Both the position numbers and the translations under genes were made by a program. A stretch of DNA of 64,000 nucleotides, taken from assembly GCA_022846075.1 (NCBI GenBank), contig AP025582.1, positions 1,426,001-1,490,000 of the forward strand, in the 5' to 3' direction. Positions 17,142 to 38,195 of the stretch are shown in pieces. The first letter of the stretch is position 1, and every line of letters begins with the position of its first letter. Source of the DNA: Oscillospiraceae bacterium. Lineage in GTDB: Bacteria > Bacillota > Clostridia > Oscillospirales > Oscillospiraceae. The notes under the pieces were generated by a model that did no database searches, had not been told where the DNA came from, and saw only the letters and a list, made by a program, of their open reading frames with translations.

Positions 17142-17388
17142 GAAATGCTTCTATCTGCCAGTTTGCCCTATTTCTCCATCATCCTATCGTGTGGTCAGTG
17201 TATCACAGACGGGCCGGACTTGCAAGACTGGCGGAACGCTTTTTAACAACCGCTCCGGGCGTTCTAAGAAAGAAAACAGGCGCCCCCTTGTGCGGTTTGA
17301 CGGAAAAAGTATGACGGACGGCGGAGGATCAAGGCCTGACAAGGGCTTTTCCCTGCCGGAAATACGAAAAACGAGGTGTGATTTCTAC

Positions 17389-21096
<3,708 letters not shown>

Positions 21097-21114
21097 GAGA
21101 GGGAGGACGACAAT

Positions 21115-24906
<3,792 letters not shown>

Positions 24907-24917
24907 GAGAAGAATAG

Positions 24918-24956
24918 GAGACGGCAGCATCAAAAGATGCCGCCGTCTCTCTTTTT
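24918..24956 (+). terminator. Terminator of rpoBC
   Basis: Fourteen-base arms (24918-24931 with 24936-24949) with one mismatch, AAAA loop, T-rich tail. Confidence 0.9.
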
Positions 24957-25320: not shown

Positions 25321-26436
25321 ATGATGTGGAAGAGAATTGGGAAAATCCTGTTGGCGTTTTTGTTGCTGCTGGCTGCCCTGGTAGGAGGGTATGCCGCCTA
25401 TTTGCTGCTGACCTACGACCGGATCGAGGACCGCCAGGTGGTGGAGGTGGAGAACACCGCCCGGACCGAGGGGGTCACGGCAAGGGTGGGGGAGACCTAT
25501 ACCGCCGTCACCTATAATGTGGGGTTCGGCGCCTACTCCGATGATTACAGCTTCTTCATGGATGGCGGAAAATACGCCCGGGCCATGAGCGAGGCGGCGG
25601 TTCGGGAAAACATTGGAGGAGATATCGCCCTTCTGGAGGGAGAAGACCCGGACCTGGTCCTGCTCCAGGAGGTGGACCGGGGCTCCACCCGGAGCTATCA
25701 GGTGGACGAGCATGAGCTGTTCCGGGAGGCGATGGGGGTGTATGCTGTCAACCATGGGGTGAATTACCACTCAGCCTACCTCTTTTATCCCCTGACACAG
25801 CCCCATGGAGCGTCTCTGTCAGGCCTGTCCACCTTTTCCCGGCTGGAAATGACCGGCGCGCTGCGGCGGAGCCTTCCCGTCAGTACCTCTCTCTATAAGT
25901 TCATCGACCTGGACCGCTGCTATGTGGTCACCCGGATCCCGGTGGACGACGGGAAGGAGCTGGCGGTCTACAACGTCCACCTCTCCGCCTATACGGAGGA
26001 CGAGAGCATCGTAAAGGCCCAGATCGCCATGCTGAGCGGGGATCTGGAACAGGATGTGGCGGCGGGCAACTACGTGGTGTGCGGGGGAGACTTCAATCAG
26101 AACCTGCTGGGGGATTCTCCGGCGGTCTTTGGGACGGACGCCAGCGCCGAAAACTGGGCCAAGCCCTTTCCCAAGGAGCTTCTGCCCAAAGGGATCAGCG
26201 TGGCCTGGGACCGGCTGGACCGGGCGGAGGTCGAAAGCCTGGCCCCCTCCTGCCGCAACGCCGACGCCCCCTACGAGGCGGGGGTCAGCTTTGTGACCAT
26301 GGTGGATGGGTTCCTTCTGTCGGACAACGTGGCGATTTTGGAGCTGGAGACCGTGGACAACGGGTTCCTATATTCCGATCATAACCCGGTCCGGCTGCGC
26401 TTCACGCTGAGGGAGACGGAGGGGGGAAGAGGATGA
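25321..26436 (+). CDS. Membrane-anchored endonuclease/exonuclease/phosphatase family protein
   Basis: A 371-residue protein with one N-terminal membrane helix (about residues 8-30) and an extracytoplasmic EEP (DNase I-like) domain. Motifs: TAVTYNVGFGA at the domain start, LVLLQEVDRGS with the metal-binding Glu, AVYNVHLSAY, VVCGGDFNQNLLGD with the catalytic Asp/Asn pair, and a C-terminal YSDHNPV with the general His. The fold hydrolyses phosphodiesters or phosphomonoesters; substrate unknown. Start at 25321 (or the adjacent ATG 25324) after GGAGGGAGG; the longer frame from 25291 has no ribosome site. It overlaps dus by four bases (ATGA). Confidence 0.87.
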   Translation: MMWKRIGKILLAFLLLLAALVGGYAAYLLLTYDRIEDRQVVEVENTARTEGVTARVGETYTAVTYNVGFGAYSDDYSFFMDGGKYARAMSEAAVRENIGGDIALLEGEDPDLVLLQEVDRGSTRSYQVDEHELFREAMGVYAVNHGVNYHSAYLFYPLTQPHGASLSGLSTFSRLEMTGALRRSLPVSTSLYKFIDLDRCYVVTRIPVDDGKELAVYNVHLSAYTEDESIVKAQIAMLSGDLEQDVAAGNYVVCGGDFNQNLLGDSPAVFGTDASAENWAKPFPKELLPKGISVAWDRLDRAEVESLAPSCRNADAPYEAGVSFVTMVDGFLLSDNVAILELETVDNGFLYSDHNPVRLRFTLRETEGGRG

Positions 26437-27392
26437 AGTTTTATTTTGCCCCTATGGAGGGTGTTACGGATCACACATTCCGAAACATCCACCACAAGTA
26501 TTTTCCGGGCCTGGACCGGTACTTTACCCCCTTTTTGTCTCCGACCCAGGACGGCCGCTTCACCGGGAAAAAGGTAAAAGATGTGCGGCCCGAGGAAAAC
26601 AGGGGCTTGAATGTGGTTCCCCAGCTCCTGACCAAGCGGCCCGAGGACTTCCTGTGGGCGGCCCGGGCGCTGGCCGACCTGGGATACCGGGAGGTCAACC
26701 TGAACCTGGGCTGTCCCTCCGGAACGGTGGTGGCGAAGGGGAAGGGGAGCGGGATGCTGGCCGACCCGGAGGGCCTGGAGCGTTTTTTCGATGAAATATT
26801 TGCCAAGACTCCGGTGGCGGTCTCCGTCAAGACCCGCCTTGGGATGAGGGAGGAGGGAGAATTTCCCCGCCTGCTGGAAATCTTCAACCGCTATCCCATC
26901 GCGGAGCTCACGGTCCACGTCCGGGTGCGGGAGGACTTTTACCGCCTTCCCGCAAGGTTGGATGCCTTTACACTTCCTCTGGCCCAGAGCAAGGCCCCGG
27001 TGTGCTACAACGGCGATCTGACCACGGCGGCCAATTTTTCCACCTTTCAGTCCCGGTTCCCGGATACCCCGGCGGCGATGCTGGGCCGGGGGCTGGTGGC
27101 CGATCCGGCACTGGTGCGCCGGATCCAGGGAGGTCCCTCCGCGGACCGGGAGACACTGAAACAGTATCATGACGAGCTGTATGAGAGCTATTGCGTTGCC
27201 TTTCAAAGCGAGCGCAACGCCCTGTGCCGGATGAAAGAAATCTGGTTTTACCACATCTGCCTCTTTGAAGGGGCGGAAAAAATCGAAAAAAAGCTGAGAA
27301 AAACCACCGACCCCGGAGAATACCGGGCGTTGGCGGCCAGGATCTTTGGGGAGCTGCCCCTCCGGGCGGAGGGAGCCCTCCCCAAATGGTGA
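26433..27392 (+). CDS. dus: tRNA-dihydrouridine synthase
   Basis: A 319-residue FMN-dependent enzyme that reduces uridines in the tRNA D-loop. It shows the Dus N-terminal block FYFAPMEGVTDHTFR, the active-site NLNLGCPSGTVV with catalytic Cys near residue 92, SVKTRLGM, and the phosphate-binding VCYNGDLTT and AMLGRGLVADP. Length is normal. Which Dus paralogue it is cannot be judged. Translationally coupled to the EEP gene; terminator follows directly. Confidence 0.93.
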   Translation: MKFYFAPMEGVTDHTFRNIHHKYFPGLDRYFTPFLSPTQDGRFTGKKVKDVRPEENRGLNVVPQLLTKRPEDFLWAARALADLGYREVNLNLGCPSGTVVAKGKGSGMLADPEGLERFFDEIFAKTPVAVSVKTRLGMREEGEFPRLLEIFNRYPIAELTVHVRVREDFYRLPARLDAFTLPLAQSKAPVCYNGDLTTAANFSTFQSRFPDTPAAMLGRGLVADPALVRRIQGGPSADRETLKQYHDELYESYCVAFQSERNALCRMKEIWFYHICLFEGAEKIEKKLRKTTDPGEYRALAARIFGELPLRAEGALPKW

Positions 27393-27423
27393 GAAGGCGG
27401 GGCATTGCCCCGCCTTCTTTTTT
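27393..27423. terminator. Terminator after dus
   Basis: Perfect 11-bp stem GAAGGCGGGGC/GCCCCGCCTTC with ATT loop and T-run, adjacent to the stop codon and 5 bases from the end of the convergent kinase gene. Confidence 0.92.
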
Positions 27424-27427
27424 CATG

Positions 27428-30400
27428 TTATAGACCACCCAGCACTTTCCCTAAGGTGGAGCGCAGCATATCCATGTCGATGGGCTTGGCCAGATGAGCG
27501 GTCATTCCGGCGGCCTGGGAGGCCTGTACGTCCTCCGCGAAGGCATTGGCGGTCATGGCGACGATGGGGATGACGGCTGCGTCGGGACGGGGGAGGGCCC
27601 GGACGGCCCGGGTCGTCTCGTAACCGTTCATCACCGGCATCTGGATATCCATCAGGATGGCGTCGTAGGTCCCCGGAGGAGCCTCTTGGAAGGCACGGAG
27701 GGCCTGGGCTCCATCCGTTTTGACCACGGAGTCGGCCCCTTCCATCAAAAGCAGCTCTTTGAGGATCTCGGCGTTGATGCTGTTGTCCTCGGCAACCAGG
27801 AACATCCGGCCCTTCAGGCCGTAGCAGCCTCCGGGGGCAGCCGGGTTTCCGGCGCTGGATCGGGGCTCAGCCTCCTCGGCCGCGGCCTCGAATTCCAGCT
27901 CCACGTGAAAGGTGGAGCCGCGGCCCGGGCTGCTCTCCACAGTGATCCGTCCGCCCATCAGGTCCACCAATCCCTTGGTAATGCTCAAGCCCAGCCCTGT
28001 CCCCTCGATATGGGCCACGGCGGCGCTGCGTGTGAAGGGGTCAAAGAGGTGGGCGAGAAAGTCCTCCGACATGCCTACGCCGGTATCCCGGACGGTAAAG
28101 CGGTATCGGGCGCGGCCCGGGCCGCTGTCCGGCGGGATCTCCTCCACCAGGAATTCCACCCGCCCGCCCTCGGGGGTAAACTTGACGGCGTTGGAGAGCA
28201 GATTGAGCAGGATCTGGTTCAGGCGCAGGGCGTCTCCCCGGAAGCGGGGGTGCTCCACCTGCCCGGTGCGGATGGTGAAGTCCAGCCCGGCCACCCGGGC
28301 CTGGGGGGTCATAATGGCGGAGAGCTGGTCCATCAGCTCAGGCAGAAAGATGGACATATGGTTCAATGTGATCTTGGCCCGTTCGATCTTGCTCATGTCC
28401 AGCACGTCGTTGATCAGGCTGAGCAGGTGCTTGGAGGCGAGGGAGATCTTTTGCAGGTAGTCCGCCACCCGCGTCTGGTCGTCCAGGTGGGCCACCGCCA
28501 GAGCCGTCATCCCCATGATGGCGTTCATGGGGGTGCGGATGTCGTGGCTCATGGCGGAGAGGAAGTCGCTCTTGGCCTGGTTGGCCTCCTCCGCTTGTGC
28601 CAGCGCATTTTTCAACGCCTCCTTGGTCTCCCGTTCCGCCGCCAGGATGTCGGTCACGTCGGCCCGCACCAGGCAGACGGTCCGGTGGCTGTCATCGCCC
28701 CACAGGACGTTGACCTGCTTATACCGAAGGCCGCTTTTCGACGATCGGTAGGGAAAGACAAAGTCGTAGCCCGCGGGCCGCTCAGCCAGCCTGGTCAGGA
28801 TGGTTTTCAGCCGGAACTGCTCCAGGGCCTCCTCTTTGTTTTCCTCCAGGCCGTATTGGCTGGCAAACTCTCCAACGGAGGAGTCGTAATCCTCCACGGT
28901 ATGGGGAGGCAGGTTCTCCAGCACGGACTGCCTGGTATAGAGGGTGAAGCGGCCGCTGTTGAGGTCGATGAAGCCCGCCAGTTCGAAGGTGTAGGCGATC
29001 ATATTCAGCAGGCCCCGCTGCTCCCGCACCGAGTCGGTGATGTCGGCGCACACCAGACAGACCCGGCCCAGGCGCAGGTCGATGGCCGAGACGGTCATGT
29101 TCTTATTGTGAATGCTGCCGCCCTCGTCGGTCAGGGAGTAAGAGAAGGTATAGGGGCCGTCCTCCGTCAGCCGTCGGCGGATCTCCTCCGGCCGGAGATT
29201 GGCCTCATACTGCGCCTTGTCCCTGGGCACGATCCTTGTGCGGGCCATCTCGGCCGCGCGCTTGGAGTGGGAGCCCTGGGCCGGAGGCGGGCAGCAGGCG
29301 TTTTTGTTGCAGACCAATACCATATAGTGGTCCTTGCTGAGGTCCAGATCGATGACATAGTCATAGCTGGTCACGGTGAGCTGGTGCAGGATGCGGTCGG
29401 AGATGGTCTGCTCCGTCACGTCCGTCACCGTCAGGATGCCGGTGACGTCGCCGGTGTCGGGGGCCTCTATCATATTCACCTTGAACTGGACGTAGCGGCC
29501 GTGCTCGTCCTTCGGCAGCCGGATGAAACAGGTCAAGGACTTTTCCGTCTCGTTGCGGCGGTAGGCCTCCAGAGAGGGGCCGTCCAGGAAGGTGTCCAGG
29601 AAGGCCTGCCGGTCCGCCTCCTCCACCACCAGGCCGGCGAGGCCGGTGAAAAAGTCCATCCGGTTGGAGCCGAAGGTTTCCAGTAGGCCGGAGTCTGTCT
29701 GATCGCTAATCTCCAGGATCCGGCTCTGGGAGATGTTGCAGTGGCCCAGCACCAGGGTGTCCGGGCCGGGCTTGCGGTAGTGCTGGAAAATCAGCTCTTC
29801 ATACTGGCGGCGCAGGGCCTCCTTTTCCTCCACCGCTTTGCTGATGTCGGTATAGATGGAGTAGATCCTGCGGGTCCCGTCCGGGGCCTGCCGGACCGAG
29901 AGGGTGTCCTTGACCCAGACATAACCCCCGTCGCCCCGCCTGAACCGGGCGGTAAGCTCACAGTGGCCTGAGCCGCGTTCCATATACGCCAGGAGCTTTT
30001 CGCGGTTTTCGGCGACGTCCTCGGGGTGGATCCCCCCAAAGACGTTGTTTTCGTACAGCTCTTTCGCCTCTTCCAAGGTCATGTGGGTCATGGCGGCGAA
30101 TCCGTTGGAGATGAACTCCGGCGTCATGGTGCCGTCCGGGTCACAGCGGATCACGGAGATGCCGCCGGGCAGGTTTTCCATCACCGTCCGGAAATCCATG
30201 TCCAGCCGTTCCTTCTCCTGGCGGAGGTGGACCTCCTCGGTGATGTCGCGGATGGACTGGATGTAGGCGGGGATTCCGTTCCAGTCGGTCCTGCGGAAAT
30301 GGGAGGTATAGAACCGGTCCGTTCCCTCCACCGCGATCTCATATTCCTGGTCCTCGTCCCGGCCCTTCCCCAGCGTGCAGAAGGGGCAGGGGGTGCTTCT

Positions 30401-31357
30401 GCCGTGCAGGGCCGCGTAGCATTTATCCCCCACCCGGTGAGGGCGGCTGGAGAAGAGCTCTCTGGACTCGTTGACGTAGAGCAGCTCGTAGCTCTCCTGG
30501 TCGATCACATAGATGCCGTCCGCCGCCTCGTTGGCGATGGACTGGAACAGCCGGGCCTCCGGGGACATGCCGGTGATCACGGTGTAAAACACGATGGGCC
30601 CCGACAAAGGCCCCATCCGGCGGCCGCTGAGGTGGAGCCAGATGAGGCTGCCGTCCTTGTGGCGCACCCGGTAGGAGAGATCCAGGGGCTCGCCGCTGGC
30701 GATGGCGCCCCTCGACGCCGCCAGCACCCGGGGCCGGTCCGGCTCATATACCATATCCAAAGCGCTGTGCCGGGTCAGCTGGGCGTACTCCTCCCGGGTG
30801 TGTCCCGAGAGGGCGGGGACGCCGTCGGAATAGAAGAGGGGGATGGAGCGCTGTCCTTCAATACGGTAGCTGGCGATGCCGCCGGGGATGGCGTTGACCA
30901 GGTGGCTCAGCTGCAGCTGGGTGTCCTTGAGGGTGGAGATGTTGTGAAAGACGCACTGGATCAGGGGAAAGCCGTCCTCCTTGCCGATCTGTTTGGCCTG
31001 GATGTGGACCCAGACCACGCTGCCGTCCCGGTGCAGCTTGCGGAACTCGAAGTCCGCCACCGTGTGGTCCCGGATGGCCTCCCGGAGCTTTCCGGTCACC
31101 ATGGCGGTGTCCTCGGGATAGGTCAGCTGTGCTGCGTCACCCTGGATCAGCGTGCGGTATTCCTCTACGGTATACCCTGACAGCTCCGGGACGCCGTCGG
31201 AGAAGTAGACAGTCTCAAAGATGTCCGAGACCTTGTAGATGGCGACGCCGCCCGGGATGGCGTTGATGATGTTCTGCATCTTTTCGCTGGTGTCGGTCAA
31301 TTCCTGTTCCAGCGAGGAGATGAACTGGTCCCTGGAGAGCCCGTCCGTTTCCCTCAC
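27428..31357 (-). CDS. Multi-PAS hybrid sensor histidine kinase with receiver
   Basis: A 1309-residue soluble hybrid kinase (no membrane helix seen). Order: four PAS units in the first 515 residues, marked by the repeats NAIPGGVAIY, NAIPGGIASY, a Cys-containing unit (CYAALHG ... PCPFC near 325-340) and ENLPGGISVI; two further sensor-like segments to about 900; HisKA with SHDIRTPMNA (His near 937); HATPase with NLLSNAVKFTPEGG, DTGVGMS and GTGLGLSI; a C-terminal receiver with VAEDNSINAEI, phosphoacceptor Asp in ILMDIQMP near 1232 and Lys in HLAKPID. GTG start at 31357 overlaps the Hpt stop. Last gene of the operon that begins at 37538. Input signal unknown. Confidence 0.93.
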   Translation of the reverse strand: MRETDGLSRDQFISSLEQELTDTSEKMQNIINAIPGGVAIYKVSDIFETVYFSDGVPELSGYTVEEYRTLIQGDAAQLTYPEDTAMVTGKLREAIRDHTVADFEFRKLHRDGSVVWVHIQAKQIGKEDGFPLIQCVFHNISTLKDTQLQLSHLVNAIPGGIASYRIEGQRSIPLFYSDGVPALSGHTREEYAQLTRHSALDMVYEPDRPRVLAASRGAIASGEPLDLSYRVRHKDGSLIWLHLSGRRMGPLSGPIVFYTVITGMSPEARLFQSIANEAADGIYVIDQESYELLYVNESRELFSSRPHRVGDKCYAALHGRSTPCPFCTLGKGRDEDQEYEIAVEGTDRFYTSHFRRTDWNGIPAYIQSIRDITEEVHLRQEKERLDMDFRTVMENLPGGISVIRCDPDGTMTPEFISNGFAAMTHMTLEEAKELYENNVFGGIHPEDVAENREKLLAYMERGSGHCELTARFRRGDGGYVWVKDTLSVRQAPDGTRRIYSIYTDISKAVEEKEALRRQYEELIFQHYRKPGPDTLVLGHCNISQSRILEISDQTDSGLLETFGSNRMDFFTGLAGLVVEEADRQAFLDTFLDGPSLEAYRRNETEKSLTCFIRLPKDEHGRYVQFKVNMIEAPDTGDVTGILTVTDVTEQTISDRILHQLTVTSYDYVIDLDLSKDHYMVLVCNKNACCPPPAQGSHSKRAAEMARTRIVPRDKAQYEANLRPEEIRRRLTEDGPYTFSYSLTDEGGSIHNKNMTVSAIDLRLGRVCLVCADITDSVREQRGLLNMIAYTFELAGFIDLNSGRFTLYTRQSVLENLPPHTVEDYDSSVGEFASQYGLEENKEEALEQFRLKTILTRLAERPAGYDFVFPYRSSKSGLRYKQVNVLWGDDSHRTVCLVRADVTDILAAERETKEALKNALAQAEEANQAKSDFLSAMSHDIRTPMNAIMGMTALAVAHLDDQTRVADYLQKISLASKHLLSLINDVLDMSKIERAKITLNHMSIFLPELMDQLSAIMTPQARVAGLDFTIRTGQVEHPRFRGDALRLNQILLNLLSNAVKFTPEGGRVEFLVEEIPPDSGPGRARYRFTVRDTGVGMSEDFLAHLFDPFTRSAAVAHIEGTGLGLSITKGLVDLMGGRITVESSPGRGSTFHVELEFEAAAEEAEPRSSAGNPAAPGGCYGLKGRMFLVAEDNSINAEILKELLLMEGADSVVKTDGAQALRAFQEAPPGTYDAILMDIQMPVMNGYETTRAVRALPRPDAAVIPIVAMTANAFAEDVQASQAAGMTAHLAKPIDMDMLRSTLGKVLGGL

Positions 31358-31725
31358 ATCGTCTCGCCCTCCTTTAAAAGCGTCCAGAGTTCTCTCGCCC
31401 TCTGGAATTCGGCCGTGACGGTTTGGTACATCAGGGGATAGTCGGTCCGGGGTTCTCCTGTGCGCAGCGGCTCCACCATGGCGCCCACCGCCTTGTAAAG
31501 GGGCGTCAGCCCCAGGTTCGCGGCGACTCCCTTCAGGGTGTGGGCCGCCGAGAAGGCGCCGGAAAGGTCCCCGGAATCCAGGGCCCGGCCCAGGAGGTCC
31601 AGGTTTTCATCCTGGAACAGCATCCCCAGCAGTCTGATATACAGCGCCTCATTTCCCATAAAGCGCTCCATGGTGATCTTGTAGTCTCCTCCATAGGCCC
31701 CGAAGGCCTCTTCAAACCGTCCCAT
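31354..31725 (-). CDS. Histidine phosphotransfer (Hpt) domain protein
   Basis: A 123-residue stand-alone Hpt protein. The phosphorylatable histidine lies in AAHTLKGVAANLG near residue 62, within a four-helix bundle pattern. It would shuttle phosphate between the receivers of the two flanking hybrid kinases. It starts 3 bases after the upstream kinase and overlaps the downstream kinase start by four bases, so the three are translationally linked. Confidence 0.92.
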   Translation of the reverse strand: MGRFEEAFGAYGGDYKITMERFMGNEALYIRLLGMLFQDENLDLLGRALDSGDLSGAFSAAHTLKGVAANLGLTPLYKAVGAMVEPLRTGEPRTDYPLMYQTVTAEFQRARELWTLLKEGETM

Positions 31726-31728
31726 CCG

Positions 31729-34700
31729 TCAATCTTCCTTTCCGAAAATGAAGTCAAACAGGGTTTGATAAAGCCGGTCCGGCTCGATGGGCTTGGCCAG
31801 GTGGGCGTTCATGCCTGCGGCCTTGCTCTTTTCAATGTCGTCGTCAAAGGCGTTGGCGGTCATGGCGATGATGGGGACGGTCCTGGCGTCGCCGTTGGTG
31901 AGATGGCGGATGTTGTTGGCCGCCGTCAGTCCATCCATCTGGGGCATCCGGATGTCCATCAGGATCGCGTCATAATACCCTTGTGTGCTTTTGCTGAACA
32001 GCTCCAGCGCGCGCAGGCCGTTCTGCGCCGTGTCCACCTGGAAGCCCCTGCTTTTCAGAAGCATGGTGGCCACCTCCGTGTTGATGGCGTTGTCCTCCAC
32101 CAAAAGCACCCGCTTGCCCGTAAAATCGTACTCGGCTGCGGGCGCCGCGGCTTCCTCTTCCTTTTCTCCAAGCGCTTTGGAGAAGGCGGAAACCAGGGTG
32201 GACTTGAACATGGGCTTGCTCATCAGCAGGTTGACGCCCGCCAGCTTGGCCTCGTGCTCGATGGTGACCCAGTCGTAGGCCGTCATGATGATGATGGTGA
32301 CCTCCGGCCCAACGATCTTTCGGATGTGCCGGGCGGTCTCGATGCCGTCCATCCCCGGCATCTTCCAGTCGATGAGGATCAGGTCGTAATATTTGTTTTG
32401 GTCCCACAGGCTCTTGACCCGGTCGATGGCCTTGGGGCCGCTGTCCACCCATTCGGCCGCCATCCCCATCTCGTGGAGGGTGACCACCGCGCTTTCGCAG
32501 ACGGCCACGTCGTCGTCCACCACCAGGGTCTTTAAGTGGGAGAAGTTGTAATCGTGCTTTTTGGGGTGGCGGCGCTGCTTTTCCTCCTCGGAGATGCCCA
32601 GCTTCACATCCACGGTGAACTCGGTGCCCAGGCCCCGGATGGAGCGCACCGTGATCTTTCCGCCCATCATATCCACGATGTTTTTGGAGATGGCAAGGCC
32701 CAGCCCCGTACCGCCAAAAAGGGCGGTGGTCCCGGTGGACTCCTGGGAGAAGGGCTCGAAGATGTGGGGCAAAAATTCCTCGCTCATGCCCACCCCCGTG
32801 TCGTTGACGATGAAGCGCAGGGTGGTGCTGTCTTTCCCCCGCTTGTGCTGGGCGGCGGAGAAGGTGACCTTGCCCCCCTCCGGGGTGAACTTGATGGCGT
32901 TGGAGAGGATGTTGAGCAGGACCTGCTGGAGCTTCATGGCGTCGCCGATATAGTAATCGTCCAGCACCGGGTCCACGATGCACTCGTATTCCACGTCCTT
33001 GGCCACGGCCTGGGCGTAGCAGATGGAGTTGAGCCCGGTCAGAAACTCCTCGGTGGGGATCCGCTCGCTCTTGAGCAGCATCTTACCGCTCTCGATCCGG
33101 CTCATGTCCAGAATGTCGTTGATGAGGGAGAGGAGGAACCGGGAGGAGATGCCGATCTTGGAGAGGCAGTCCGCCACCTGGTCGTCGTCGCCGATGGACT
33201 GGGCCGCGATGGTGCTCATGCCGATGATGGCGTTCATGGGGGTGCGGATCTCATGGCTCATGCGGGAGAGGAAGTCCGACTTGGCGGCGCTGGCCTGCTC
33301 GGCCGCCGCCAGGGCGGAGGCCAGCTCCGCCTTCTGCTTCTGCTCCTGGCGGACCACGTCGGTGACGTCGGTGCGGGTCATGCAGGCCCGGCCCATCTCC
33401 TTGTCGATGTAAAAGACCTGGAACCGTTTGACCCGGAGCTCTCCCGCCTGCCGCATCTCCAGAATGAAGTTGTAGGAGTCCTGCCGGGCCAGCCGGTCCT
33501 TCATATACGAAAAGTCCAGATAGCGCAGGAAGGTGTCCTGGTCCCGTTCGTTCATGACCCGGGCGGCCACATTGCGGATCTCCGTCTGAAAATCTCCCCG
33601 GGGCGGGATGGTCTCTTCCTGTGCCTGGTCCCGGGCCACCGTGTGATAGTCGCCCTGGACCAGGTCGATCTCGGCGATGACGTCGTAGTCCAGCCGGGCG
33701 ATCCGCTTCAGCAGGAATTCCTGGAGCTTTTGCTCCGTGACGTCCTCCGTGTAAAAAAACGCGATGATGTCGTCGGCCTCCGGGTTCAGGCGGGTGCGGA
33801 AGCTGGTGCGGCTCCAGAAAGAGCCGCCGCCGTTCCGCCTGCGCAGAAATTCAAAGTGGTAGTCCGTCTTTCCGGCTGCGTAGTCGCGCAGAACCTTGGC
33901 CCGGTCCAGGGTCCTGCGGATGGTTTCCCCATAGGCGGGGTCGATCGCGGAGGCGGCCAGCCATTCAATGGTATCCGTATAGGTGTCTCCCACTTCGGCG
34001 ATGGCCACGTCCGAGGTGGACAGATAGCTCTCCATCCGGTCCTTGGTGACGTTGATGGCCCCCTGGATGCTCCCTTCGGTGGTGGACAATTCCGCAAAGT
34101 AGGTCAGCTCCTGCTCATAGCGCTCCCTGACCCGCTCCTGAAGCTGCTTGACATCCGTGATGTCGATGCAGACCGAGAGGATGGCTTTTCGGCCGTCCTC
34201 GGCGGTCACGGTCCGCCCGGTGTCGTGGACCCAGATGTATGACCCGTCTTTTTTCTTCATCCGGTACTCTACGACGTACTCGTTCCGCTGGGAGAGCTGC
34301 TCGTCCACGGCTGTGTCCACCTGGTCCCGGTCGTCGGGGTGCATGCAGTTGGTGATCAGGCCGCCGATGTCGGAAACAAAATCCGCCTCGTCCCGGTAGC
34401 CCAGGTAGTCCAGCATCCTTCGGTTGACGAAGTAATAGGGGAAGCCCTCCTCCAGATAGCCGCCCATCATTCCGCCGGCCAGGGAATCGTTGAGCAGTTC
34501 CTGCCGGGTCTGGGCGATGTGTTCCAAAACCAAAGCCTGGGGGTAATGCTCCCCGCCCTTCTGGTTATGGCTGGGCTCGGCGACGTGGAGGCTTTTGATC
34601 CGCCAGTCCCCGCCGGTCTCCTCCAGGATGAAGAAGCCCCGCAGGCGCCAGGTGTAGTAGCTGTTCTTCAGCTTCAGCTCCACGGTGTAATTGCACATGC

Positions 34701-34944
34701 GCTCACCCAGCCGTTGTGCCTGGAGAGGGAGGAGCTCCATCTGAAAGGGCTCCGGGATCTCCCGGATATCCTGCCGGATGTAGGCGGCCATCTCATCCCT
34801 GCCCTGGGCGGATTCCCGCTCGCCGGTGCCTACGAAGCCCACGTCCTCCGTCAGGAGGGCCGCTGCCCCGTCCGCGTCGCGCCGCTGGAACCAGGCGCCT
34901 AAAAAGGCCTGGATGACCTCCATGGCCGCCGTTTGCTCCCGCAT
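31729..34944 (-). CDS. SnoaL-PAS hybrid histidine kinase with two receivers
   Basis: A 1071-residue hybrid kinase. Residues 1-130 look like a SnoaL/NTF2-like domain (VIQAFLGAWFQRRDADGA, GRDEMAAYIRQD), followed by a PAS domain (about 165-290, ending KAILSVCIDITD), two more sensor segments, HisKA with SHEIRTPMNA (His near 563), HATPase with NILSNAIKFTPEGG, DTGVGMS, GTGLGLAI, then receiver 1 (VVDDDVAVCES, Asp in LILIDWKMPG near 860, Lys in MSKPM) and receiver 2 (VEDNAINTEV, Asp in ILMDIRMP near 993, Lys in LAKPIE). ATG 34944 is chosen because AAAGGA is 8 bases upstream; that site overlaps the end of the previous gene. No membrane segment seen. Confidence 0.92.
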   Translation of the reverse strand: MREQTAAMEVIQAFLGAWFQRRDADGAAALLTEDVGFVGTGERESAQGRDEMAAYIRQDIREIPEPFQMELLPLQAQRLGERMCNYTVELKLKNSYYTWRLRGFFILEETGGDWRIKSLHVAEPSHNQKGGEHYPQALVLEHIAQTRQELLNDSLAGGMMGGYLEEGFPYYFVNRRMLDYLGYRDEADFVSDIGGLITNCMHPDDRDQVDTAVDEQLSQRNEYVVEYRMKKKDGSYIWVHDTGRTVTAEDGRKAILSVCIDITDVKQLQERVRERYEQELTYFAELSTTEGSIQGAINVTKDRMESYLSTSDVAIAEVGDTYTDTIEWLAASAIDPAYGETIRRTLDRAKVLRDYAAGKTDYHFEFLRRRNGGGSFWSRTSFRTRLNPEADDIIAFFYTEDVTEQKLQEFLLKRIARLDYDVIAEIDLVQGDYHTVARDQAQEETIPPRGDFQTEIRNVAARVMNERDQDTFLRYLDFSYMKDRLARQDSYNFILEMRQAGELRVKRFQVFYIDKEMGRACMTRTDVTDVVRQEQKQKAELASALAAAEQASAAKSDFLSRMSHEIRTPMNAIIGMSTIAAQSIGDDDQVADCLSKIGISSRFLLSLINDILDMSRIESGKMLLKSERIPTEEFLTGLNSICYAQAVAKDVEYECIVDPVLDDYYIGDAMKLQQVLLNILSNAIKFTPEGGKVTFSAAQHKRGKDSTTLRFIVNDTGVGMSEEFLPHIFEPFSQESTGTTALFGGTGLGLAISKNIVDMMGGKITVRSIRGLGTEFTVDVKLGISEEEKQRRHPKKHDYNFSHLKTLVVDDDVAVCESAVVTLHEMGMAAEWVDSGPKAIDRVKSLWDQNKYYDLILIDWKMPGMDGIETARHIRKIVGPEVTIIIMTAYDWVTIEHEAKLAGVNLLMSKPMFKSTLVSAFSKALGEKEEEAAAPAAEYDFTGKRVLLVEDNAINTEVATMLLKSRGFQVDTAQNGLRALELFSKSTQGYYDAILMDIRMPQMDGLTAANNIRHLTNGDARTVPIIAMTANAFDDDIEKSKAAGMNAHLAKPIEPDRLYQTLFDFIFGKED

Positions 34945-34949
34945 ATGAC

Positions 34950-37538
34950 TCATCCTTTCCATAGGCAGCATCCGCCCTTGTGGTTGGCCTTGGCGCAGTA
35001 CAGCGCTTGGTCGGCCTGATCCACAGCCTCGGCCATTGTGCCCGCCCCGTCCCAAAGGACGAGCCCGGCGGAGCAGGTGGCCTGGATCCTGCCGCTGCGG
35101 CAGTCCCGCTGGACCGCCCTGCAGATCTCCTCGCCCTTTTTCAGGGCGGTTGCCTCCGAACTCATCCGTTTGATGACCGCGACAAACTCGTCCCCGCCCA
35201 GACGGCAGAGAAAGTCCCCCTCTCTGGTGTGGGAGCGCAATAGGTCGCTAAAGGTCTTGATGATCTGGTCCCCCTCCTGGTGTCCGAAGGTATCGTTGAT
35301 CTCCTTGAGGTGGTCCAGATCGAAGAGGTAGACCGCGATAGGGGTGTCCTCCATCCGCAGGGAGGAGGCGGCGGCGTCCAGCCCCCGGCGGTTCAGGAGC
35401 CCGGTCAGGTAGTCTCGAAAAGCCTCGTCCCGGAGCGCGCGCTCCCGCCGCCAGGCTGCGGCGTTCTGGATCACTCGCAGGGTCCGCCGCCGGAGGCTCT
35501 CCTGTTGGTGGGGCTTACTTTCAAAATCGTTGGCGCCCAGCTGAAGGGCCGTCAGCTCGCAGGAGGAGCCGGCGGGGCCGGTGGCAATGATGGGGACCTC
35601 CCAAACCGACCGCTCCCGCAGGAGGGTCTGGAGCAGCGTGGGATCCCCCATCCCCGGCAGGGTCATGCTCAGGATGACTGCCGCCAGTTTGCCCTTGTGC
35701 CGATTCAGGCAGTCCATGGCCGCGGTCTCATTCTCTGCCTCGGCGATTTGGAACTGGTCCTCAAAGGTGCCGCGGACCGTGGCGCGGTACTGGGGATCCT
35801 CGTCCACCACCAGGAGCACCCGCTCAGGCAGCTCGTCCTTGGATTTCCACGCCTCTTCCAGTTCGAGGGCGGCGATCTCCTCCTGCTTTTTCAAAAGCTC
35901 CTGGAACTCTCCGCAGGGCATGGGCTTGGCAAAGTAGTAACCCTGCACGTAGTCGCAGCCGATCTCCCGCAGGCGCTCCAGCTGGCTGCGGGTCTCCACA
36001 CCCTCGGCCACCACGTCCAGATGCATCCAGCGGGCCAGGTCCATGATGAAGCGCAGGGCCCCCTGGCTTTTCGGCTTGGCCGTCTCATTCTGGATGAATT
36101 TCATGTCCAGCTTCAAAACGTCGATGGGCATCTCGTTGAGCATATTCAGGGAGGAGTAGCCGCTGCCGAAGTCGTCCATTTCGATGATGAAGCCCAGCTC
36201 CCGCAACCTGCTCACCGTGAGGATGATCTGGCTGGGATTTTCCGTATAGGCGCTCTCTGTGATCTCCAGATGGAGGCGGGAGGGGGGCAGGCCGTATTTC
36301 TCCACCGTATGGGTCAGGATATCGGCCAGGTCGGCGTTGTAGATGTCGGCCCGGGACACATTCACCGAAATGGAGATGGGGGGCAGGCCACGGTCGTCCC
36401 AATCCCGGAGGATGGCGCAGGCCCGGTCCCAGATGTACTGATCCAGCTTTGTGATGAAGCCGTTCTTTTCAAAGAGCGGGATGAACTCGCCGGGAAGCTG
36501 CAGGCCCCACTCGGGGTGGTTCCAGCGCACCAGGGCCTCCGCCCCGGCCAGGCGCTCGTCGGCGATGCGGTATTTGGGCTGCAGATAGACCTCGAACTGA
36601 CCCCCGGCCAGAGCCGATTCCATATTGTCCGTGATGGCCTGCTGGCGCAGCAGCTTGCCGCGGAGGGCGTCGTCATAGGTGGCGAAGTATTTGCCGTACT
36701 GGCCCTTGATGCTGTGGGCCGCCAAAATGGCCCGGTCACACATCTGCTCGACGGAGAGGCTCTTGTCCTCAATGGGATAGATCCCCCATTTGATGACCAC
36801 GGTCATGGGCTTGGACAGGGCATTGATCTCCTCGGCGGATTCGATAAACATATCGTCGGTATAATCCCAGTCCCGCTCCAGCAGGCAGACAAACTGGTCG
36901 GCCTGGATCCGGCCGCAGATCCCGTGACGCCCCGCGTGCCGCAAAAGCAGGTCCGCCAGGTCGCACAGGAGCTTGTCGCCCGCGGGGAGGCCAAAGACGT
37001 CATTGACCAATTTGAAATTTTCGATGTCAGAGCACAGAAGGTCATAGCGCTGCTCCGGGTGCTGGGCGAAGGCCTCCCGCACCTTTTGATAGAAAAACTC
37101 CTTGCTGTACAGCTGGGTCAGCCGGTCGTACTGGACCAGGTTGATCATGGCGGCCGTCTCCCGCAGGCTGATGATGCTGGCGATCCGGTGCAGGATGATC
37201 TGGGGCTTATAGGGCTTGATGACGAAATCCGTGGCGCCGTGGGACAGGGCGGTGACCTCGTCCTCCTCGCTGTCGCTGTTGGTGGTCACGATGACGGGGA
37301 TGGAGGAGAGGACGGGGTCGGCCTTGACGATGGACAGGAAGGTGTAGCCGTCCATGACGGGCATGATGATGTCCAGCAGGATGAGGGAGACCGTGTCCTG
37401 CTCCCGCTCCAGGACGGAGAGGGCCTCCTGGCCGTTTTCCGCCTCCAGCATGGTATATTCGGGAGACAGGATCTCCTCCAGCATCATCCGATTGATCGCG
37501 TTGTCTTCCACCACGAGGATCTTCTTTTTTGTGATCAT
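34950..37538 (-). CDS. REC-GGDEF-EAL-REC-GGDEF response regulator
   Basis: An 862-residue regulator with five domains. REC1 (residues 1-125) has VEDNAINRMM and phosphoacceptor Asp in LILLDIIMP near 54. A GGDEF-like domain follows (about 130-300) but its signature reads RIQADQF, so it should be inactive. The EAL domain (310-560) keeps GAEALVRW, LEITES, DDFGSGYSS and VAEGVET and is probably an active phosphodiesterase. A second receiver (575-690) has Ser in place of Asp (VILSMTLPG), a pseudoreceiver. The terminal GGDEF (700-862) has RLGGDEF and DLDHLKEINDTFGH and looks active. Start at 37538 fits AGAGGG at 9 bases; ATG 37547 abuts that site. First gene of the signalling operon. Confidence 0.92.
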   Translation of the reverse strand: MITKKKILVVEDNAINRMMLEEILSPEYTMLEAENGQEALSVLEREQDTVSLILLDIIMPVMDGYTFLSIVKADPVLSSIPVIVTTNSDSEEDEVTALSHGATDFVIKPYKPQIILHRIASIISLRETAAMINLVQYDRLTQLYSKEFFYQKVREAFAQHPEQRYDLLCSDIENFKLVNDVFGLPAGDKLLCDLADLLLRHAGRHGICGRIQADQFVCLLERDWDYTDDMFIESAEEINALSKPMTVVIKWGIYPIEDKSLSVEQMCDRAILAAHSIKGQYGKYFATYDDALRGKLLRQQAITDNMESALAGGQFEVYLQPKYRIADERLAGAEALVRWNHPEWGLQLPGEFIPLFEKNGFITKLDQYIWDRACAILRDWDDRGLPPISISVNVSRADIYNADLADILTHTVEKYGLPPSRLHLEITESAYTENPSQIILTVSRLRELGFIIEMDDFGSGYSSLNMLNEMPIDVLKLDMKFIQNETAKPKSQGALRFIMDLARWMHLDVVAEGVETRSQLERLREIGCDYVQGYYFAKPMPCGEFQELLKKQEEIAALELEEAWKSKDELPERVLLVVDEDPQYRATVRGTFEDQFQIAEAENETAAMDCLNRHKGKLAAVILSMTLPGMGDPTLLQTLLRERSVWEVPIIATGPAGSSCELTALQLGANDFESKPHQQESLRRRTLRVIQNAAAWRRERALRDEAFRDYLTGLLNRRGLDAAASSLRMEDTPIAVYLFDLDHLKEINDTFGHQEGDQIIKTFSDLLRSHTREGDFLCRLGGDEFVAVIKRMSSEATALKKGEEICRAVQRDCRSGRIQATCSAGLVLWDGAGTMAEAVDQADQALYCAKANHKGGCCLWKG

Positions 37539-37622
37539 CCTACTCATCCCTCTGTCCCGCCTGCGGCGCCCATCATTTTAACTTGCCCTGTATCCAAATC
37601 CTGTTTGAAGTATATTTAAATA

Positions 37623-37651
37623 AGTATAGCAAAGTGTGGTAAAAATAGCAA
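37623..37651 (-). promoter_or_regulatory. Promoter of the signalling operon
   Basis: On the minus strand TTGCTA (37651-37646), 17-base spacer, TATACT (37628-37623), about 85 bases before the first gene. Confidence 0.7.
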
Positions 37652-37748: not shown

Positions 37749-38195
37749 TCAATGCGGTGTCAGCGTTTTCAGCAGTTGACTGCACCCCTCCCAGACATCG
37801 GAAAAGGTTGCCTCAAAATCCCCGGTGTACCAGGGGTCGGCGATGTCCCTGGGGCTGTCGCTCCAGTCCAGGAGACGGTGGATCTTTTCCCCGCTTCCCG
37901 CGATGCGGGCCATGCCCCGCAGGTTGGCGGCATCCATGCCGATGAGCAGGTCGTAAAGGCCGGCGTCCCGCCGGGTCATCTGCCGGGCCCGGTGGGGGAC
38001 CAGGGGGATGCCGTGGGCGGCCAGGACCCGCCGGGTGCCTGGGTGGACCCCATTCCCAATCTCCTCCGTACTGGTGGCGGCAGAAGACACCTCGATTTCT
38101 GCAAGGCCATTTTCCTTTACAAGGTGGATCATCACGCTCTCGGCCATGGGGGAGCGGCAGATATTGCCGTGGCAGACGAAAAGGACCCTGGTCAT
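37749..38195 (-). CDS. Low-molecular-weight protein-tyrosine phosphatase
   Basis: A 148-residue LMW-PTP. The P-loop CHGNICRSP starts at Cys8 (CX5R), and the general-acid Asp lies in DPWYTGDF near residue 120. It removes phosphate from tyrosine (some members from arginine) in proteins. Start overlaps the stop of the macro-domain gene by four bases (ATGA), so both are made together. Confidence 0.93.

Follow-up and report, generated by a model that had tools for sequence, protein, structure and literature searches.

The four closely packed genes A-B-C-D, which run from position 37538 to 27428 on the minus strand of the 64,000-nt stretch of Oscillospiraceae DNA analyzed here (the window), are likely to encode a cytoplasmic phosphorelay that sets c-di-GMP, and to have been gained together as one block. 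Gene A (34950..37538, minus strand) encodes a REC1-GGDEF1-EAL-REC2-GGDEF2 protein with a degenerate GGDEF1 and Ser for Asp in REC2, as assigned from domain matches, with the start taken from orthologs. It is followed on the same strand by gene B (31729..34944), a SnoaL_3-PAS-HisKA-HATPase-REC-REC hybrid kinase whose start was chosen by eye from Shine-Dalgarno spacing; gene C (31354..31725), a standalone Hpt with His62 recognized by domain match and Hpt alignment; and gene D (27428..31357), a multi-PAS HisKA-HATPase-REC hybrid kinase with a GTG start, assigned from domain matches. ORFs and domain matches thus bore out the composition given in a preliminary description of this DNA, including two hybrid kinases with three receivers in total and an Hpt protein.

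The tight spacing claimed there was likewise found in the sequence, with junctions of +5, +3, and -4 nt. In detail, the stop codon of A (34952-34950) and the start of B (34944) are separated by a 5-nt gap, while an alternative B start at 34953 would give a 4-nt ATGA overlap with A; the B/C junction is a 3-nt gap, and C and D share a 4-nt GTGA overlap. The start of A proposed earlier, 37538, fits better than that of the longest ORF (37547), because residue 1 of the orthologs in L012, L171, and L172 and of the paralog in the same genome (L094) aligns at query residue 4. Residue numbers below were counted from the long ORFs, so that the numbering of A (P0001) starts at 37547. The operon is flanked by a low-molecular-weight phosphatase gene (37749..38195, minus strand) and a Dus-family gene (26433..27392, plus strand), the right and left borders, respectively, of the putative insertion.

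Transcription signals were then evaluated in 12 kb on both strands. The 210-nt gap upstream of A holds the sole two sigma-70-like matches, both on the minus strand; a weak promoter candidate, TTGCTA-17-TATACT, whose -10 element is preceded by TG (37623..37651, minus strand), lies about 85 nt before the A start. The single promoter claimed previously would fit the position of these matches, but their count is no higher than in shuffled sequences (2 observed vs. a shuffle mean of 2.6), and terminator-like sites were also at chance level (9 observed vs. 8.5 in shuffles). A 13-pair hairpin (27391..27419) lies where D and the Dus-family gene converge, with a T run on the plus strand only. A single transcript is suggested mainly because there is no space between the genes inside the operon. 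At gathering scores, the Rfam scan of the window returned two tRNAs and no match on the operon. A, B, and D matched 114, 155, and 116 NCBIfam families, respectively; no equivalog reached its cut-off among the 25 matches listed for each of them, nor was one found for C. Elsewhere in the window, a 2534-aa minus-strand ORF (17329-24933) lies opposite an rpoC-like gene (21115-24906); it gave no Pfam match at E ≤0.001 and is most likely a spurious shadow ORF.

The domains of A span residues 10-122 (REC1), 309-542 (EAL), about 577-690 (REC2), and 709-857 (GGDEF2), with the degenerate GGDEF1 between REC1 and EAL. REC1 (37182..37520, minus strand, as for all domains of A) retains Asp59, the phospho-acceptor expected of a terminal regulator, and the EAL domain (35922..36623) retains both phosphodiesterase motifs, EAL and DDFG. 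GGDEF1 (36720..37133) reads RIQAD at its motif, whereas GGDEF2 (34977..35423) has an intact GGDEF with an RxxD (REGD) ahead of it, so that only one of the two GGDEF domains of A keeps the motif. REC2 (35478..35819) carries Ser627 in place of Asp in the alignment, and is a pseudo-receiver that shows receiver strands and helices in the structural model. The REC-GGDEF-EAL-REC-GGDEF architecture described earlier was therefore confirmed, but the degeneracy of REC2 and GGDEF1 had been overlooked. The candidate view of five working receivers in the operon was rejected, as the phospho-Asp is kept in four of five. Among 22 related A proteins, the GGDEF1 motif is missing in all and the DDFG of the EAL domain is present in all, one of them (L053) reading ESL for EAL. 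In GGDEF-EAL enzymes elsewhere, a degenerate GGDEF can bind GTP as an allosteric site. From its sequence, A is read as a single genuine receiver that controls an intact EAL domain, followed by a PleD-like pseudo-receiver/cyclase tail.

For the kinases, the HisKA His was located at His601 in B and His938 in D, each accompanied by a HATPase domain, and the phospho-Asp of the fused receivers at Asp896 and Asp1034 in B and Asp1237 in D. C is a separate Hpt of 123 aa with an HxLKG motif carrying His62, which is invariant in all 25 aligned Hpts. On the Kyte-Doolittle scale, no 19-residue segment of B or D exceeds 1.6. The SnoaL_3 domain at the N-terminus of B is an unusual candidate sensor; scans of four B orthologs (L011, L012, L014, L171) and of two paralogs from the same genome revealed it in all of the former and in neither of the latter. 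A PAS segment of D (window 30377-30421) contains Cys313, Cys324, and Cys327 (C-x10-C-x2-C, ending in PCPFC) and is a candidate site for metal binding or redox chemistry.

The phosphotransfer, its direction and partners, the enzyme activities, the signals, and any bias between c-di-GMP breakdown and synthesis are what we infer as follows. The hybrid kinases B and D would autophosphorylate on the HisKA His and pass the phosphate via their own receivers to His62 of the Hpt C, which would in turn phosphorylate Asp59 in REC1 of A. Phosphorylated REC1 would then alter the phosphodiesterase activity of the EAL domain, the most conserved output, with the degenerate GGDEF1 probably acting as an allosteric GTP site; with REC2 as a PleD-like adaptor, REC1 would also alter the activity of the cyclase GGDEF2, whose RxxD is of the product-inhibition type. 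The four genes would have been acquired as a single block at a site between two genes that converge. A complete His-Asp-His-Asp relay leading to c-di-GMP turnover, as claimed earlier, is the best reading of the domains and key residues, although one receiver and one GGDEF are degenerate. One functional unit is further supported by the conserved gene order and the apparent block gain presented below.

A quite possible alternative, to which we give somewhat less than an even chance, is that the Hpt C acts as a common node, which receives phosphate from several hybrid kinases of the cell and passes it to REC1 of both A and a second protein, A', making a many-to-one core rather than a closed module. 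The genome contains 20 GGDEF and 9 EAL matches, and at least nine hybrid kinases were counted in the regions read, a minimum drawn from part of the 28 HisKA places, vs. only two Hpts, the number detected both by Pfam at E ≤1 and by a 25-row alignment used at E ≤10; these numbers make Hpt sharing plausible. Further, another cluster, located at about 2200-2214 kb (L094:4215-18327), encodes A', a REC-GGDEF-EAL protein 66% identical to A over residues 4-552, with two hybrid kinases behind it and a PAS-GGDEF protein, but no Hpt, and the first helices of the receivers are similar by eye. However, similar receivers need not share a partner, the searches may have passed over divergent Hpts, some of the kinases could be served by the second Hpt (L091), and some hybrid kinases may function without any Hpt. 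A' also groups in the tree with family f23 sequences (86/90) rather than beside A, and may be a separate acquisition. The lack of an Hpt within this A'-B'-D' cluster also counts against the relay reading, as the kinases may transfer phosphate directly to REC.

Two further elements of the c-di-GMP network were observed in this genome. The other Hpt (L091:7438-9829) adjoins a REC-HD-GYP-GGDEF protein. The sole c-di-GMP-I riboswitch match (L168:9910-9998; 3128909-3128997 of the genome, minus strand) directly precedes a 1258-aa ORF with DUF11 and Flg_new matches, a signal-peptide-like start, and an LPQTG plus hydrophobic tail at its end. The product is likely a wall-anchored surface protein and plausibly an end point of c-di-GMP signalling; no PilZ domain was found in the genome at E ≤0.001.

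The conservation of the REC2-GGDEF2 tail bears on whether the relay described above also governs synthesis. Among 11 aligned A proteins with REC2, the phospho-site is Ser in nine, Arg in one (L175), and Asp in one (L176); the nine close A proteins (own, L011, L012, L169, L170, L171, L172, L173, and L174) all have Ser. Within these nine, mean pairwise identity is 0.42 for REC2 vs. 0.71 for REC1, and 14 of 114 REC2 columns are invariant, including D582, E583, D584, S627, and K678; by this alignment, the altered site itself is kept while REC2 drifts fast. That A is just a phosphodiesterase, its GGDEF2 being inactive or dispensable and the relay leading to breakdown only, appears rather unlikely: the EAL motifs are kept and GGDEF2 is absent in three of the nine close A proteins, which nevertheless retain REC2 (L171, L172, L174), but wherever present among the nine it keeps both GGDEF and RxxD (6/6). 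L174, whose frame holds a stop, was counted among the three without GGDEF2, given that its match stops short of this domain and that the locus yielded no additional domain ORF.

The arrangement of the operon was then compared among genomes by the synteny survey suggested earlier, and the A-B-C-D order recurred in five others, L011 (Intestinibacillus massiliensis), L012, L014, L171, and L172, with operon proteins 51-69% identical to those studied here; A is shorter in L014, L171, and L172. In L170 and L173, the Hpt adjoins A instead. A four-gene order common to five other genomes indicated that the arrangement is more than chance. In an even draw of the order, relatives of A at E ≤1e-100 were found in 35 of 394 genomes, and matches extending from about residue 5 to at least residue 855 in four of 394, own included (G000, G156, G362, G285). 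Within the genus, the search with A at E ≤1e-40 in 16 genomes found, besides its own, only G010 (41-42% identity) and G013 (34%), and an Hpt match occurred in nine of 15 genus-mates at ≤37% identity, vs. 54% in another family.

Consistently, an empty site was found in seven of the 15 genus-mates (G001, G002, G003, G005, G007, G009, G014), where the phosphatase and Dus-family flank genes are convergent neighbours with 28-55 nt between the aligned parts. G004 and G013 have the two flank genes on a single contig, differently oriented and about 2.4-2.6 kb from each other; in the remaining six genus-mates, the pair is split between contigs or at least one member gave no match at the threshold. Given the empty site, and with no close relatives detected in those genomes of the genus that were searched, the operon was probably gained as one block. 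Its GC content (0.623, vs. 0.610 for the window) gives no compositional sign of transfer, which points to a donor of similar composition or to an ancient gain. A tree built from the A core joins A to L012 and L015 (82/91) and A' to G082 and G150 (86/90), by which placement A' as a plain duplicate of A was rejected, weakly. Seven of the 18 inner branches of this tree are open and row G129 is very long; it is therefore the distribution and the empty site, rather than this tree, that argue for transfer. That the four genes are chance neighbours, with B and D serving other regulators, is very unlikely: two-component genes tend to cluster and kinase and regulator genes often adjoin (PMC4558063), but the order is identical in five other genomes, in whose fetched stretches neither flank gene was found, and the genes were apparently gained as one block.

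To place the operon among its relatives, the best 80 of 308 confirmed standalone Hpt candidates, ranked by likeness to C, were analyzed with up to 10 kb fetched per side; L050, in which no standalone Hpt ORF was called, was left out, giving 79 loci. Clusters were defined as same-strand ORFs that match one of eight domain models and lie <400 nt apart, those cut by contig ends, and L013 with its broken frames, being counted as they stand. Among these nearest relatives of C, the Hpt cluster contained a c-di-GMP domain in 52 of 79 loci, a receiver-linked c-di-GMP enzyme in 51 (mostly REC-HD-GYP), a hybrid kinase in 28, and both of the latter two in 22. The Hpt stood alone in 18 of 79 and had no c-di-GMP domain in its cluster in 27, so the link between Hpt and c-di-GMP is usual and not universal. 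Around the same 79 Hpts, 65 c-di-GMP ORFs lay within 4 kb (561 kb; 0.116 per kb) and seven beyond 5 kb (562 kb; 0.012 per kb), a near density about tenfold that far off, the control being this near/far comparison around the Hpt and not random genes. The records of the 22 loci with both carry 21 Bacillota names, that of L031 included, and one "uncultured bacterium".

These counts do not support the claim that the module is unusually complete for a Firmicute, as a receiver-linked c-di-GMP enzyme is present in 51 of the 79 clusters and a hybrid kinase as well in 22. They indicate that the general module is common near the Hpt family of C, the EAL/GGDEF form being less so: among the same 79 loci from the best 80 of 308, a GGDEF/EAL-bearing receiver output together with a hybrid kinase was found in only five (L011, L012, L014, L051, L066), three of which are orthologs of the operon. 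This low share speaks for the earlier claim, as does a 2010 survey, in whose account two-component genes of Firmicutes occur mostly in pairs and only five tetrads include a phosphotransfer protein (PMC3018481).

The operon is ordinary in kind; what sets it apart is a pseudo-receiver with a conserved Ser, its apparent gain as a block, and a possible Hpt hub. If the relay reading is true, the operon would be a compact complete relay that could be rebuilt in a test tube, would suggest that such relays are common in Clostridia and can be gained whole, and would provide, in its conserved Ser pseudo-receiver, an example on which the working of these domains could be studied. More speculatively, and improbable as a whole, a self-contained relay operon may move as a block between gut Clostridia and rewire the host, its Hpt becoming the hub of resident hybrid kinases and its "serine receiver", in which the triad, Ser, and Lys are kept while the rest drifts, serving as a built-in sensor for a ligand or a metal, placed between the phosphodiesterase and the cyclase.

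In the open literature, no paper about an Hpt-to-c-di-GMP relay in Clostridia was found by title or abstract, and the word GGDEF is absent from the main text of the 2010 survey (PMC3018481). Four of the five tetrads with a phosphotransfer protein given in that survey comprise two kinases, a regulator, and that protein, but in the order HK>RR>PP>HK, compared with RR>HK>PP>HK in the operon. The Hno network of Shewanella oneidensis, as described in PMC6335343, is alike in that two kinases, HnoK and HnoS, converge on an EAL response regulator, HnoB, which degrades c-di-GMP; the operon differs by its separate Hpt and by one output protein with both EAL and GGDEF, and no H-NOX match to Pfam was found in the four operon proteins or six flanking proteins. 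In Pseudomonas aeruginosa, one standalone Hpt, HptB, serves four hybrid kinases (PMC6335343), but it feeds HsbR, whereas the operon unites kinases, Hpt, and c-di-GMP enzyme. The pseudo-receiver of Caulobacter ShkA is a precedent for c-di-GMP binding (PMC7010744); it sits in a hybrid kinase, while REC2 of A sits in an output protein and its ligand binding is putative.

The closest comparison for the tail of A is Caulobacter PleD, which consists of a receiver, a pseudo-receiver, and a cyclase, and in which phosphorylation of the receiver, acting via the pseudo-receiver, permits dimerization and cyclase activity (PMC12632262). REC2-GGDEF2 (571-857) aligns with PleD 149-446, and in the AlphaFold model of A, built from six sequences, REC2 shows the strand-helix order of a receiver, so that alignment and model place a pseudo-receiver directly ahead of a GGDEF as in PleD. 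The model has a mean pLDDT of 78.7 but a pTM of 0.42, and does not fix the domain packing. Its Foldseek matches are mainly GGDEF-EAL and EAL structures, and PleD, only at rank 49 and with a poor whole-length superposition, counts against the reading given here. A also departs from the PleD make-up of receiver, pseudo-receiver, and GGDEF alone, because the degenerate GGDEF and EAL intervene between REC1 and the pseudo-receiver, and REC2 has Ser for Asp with the acidic triad and Lys kept. We read A as PleD-like in layout, with a phosphodiesterase cassette separating its receiver from its pseudo-receiver.
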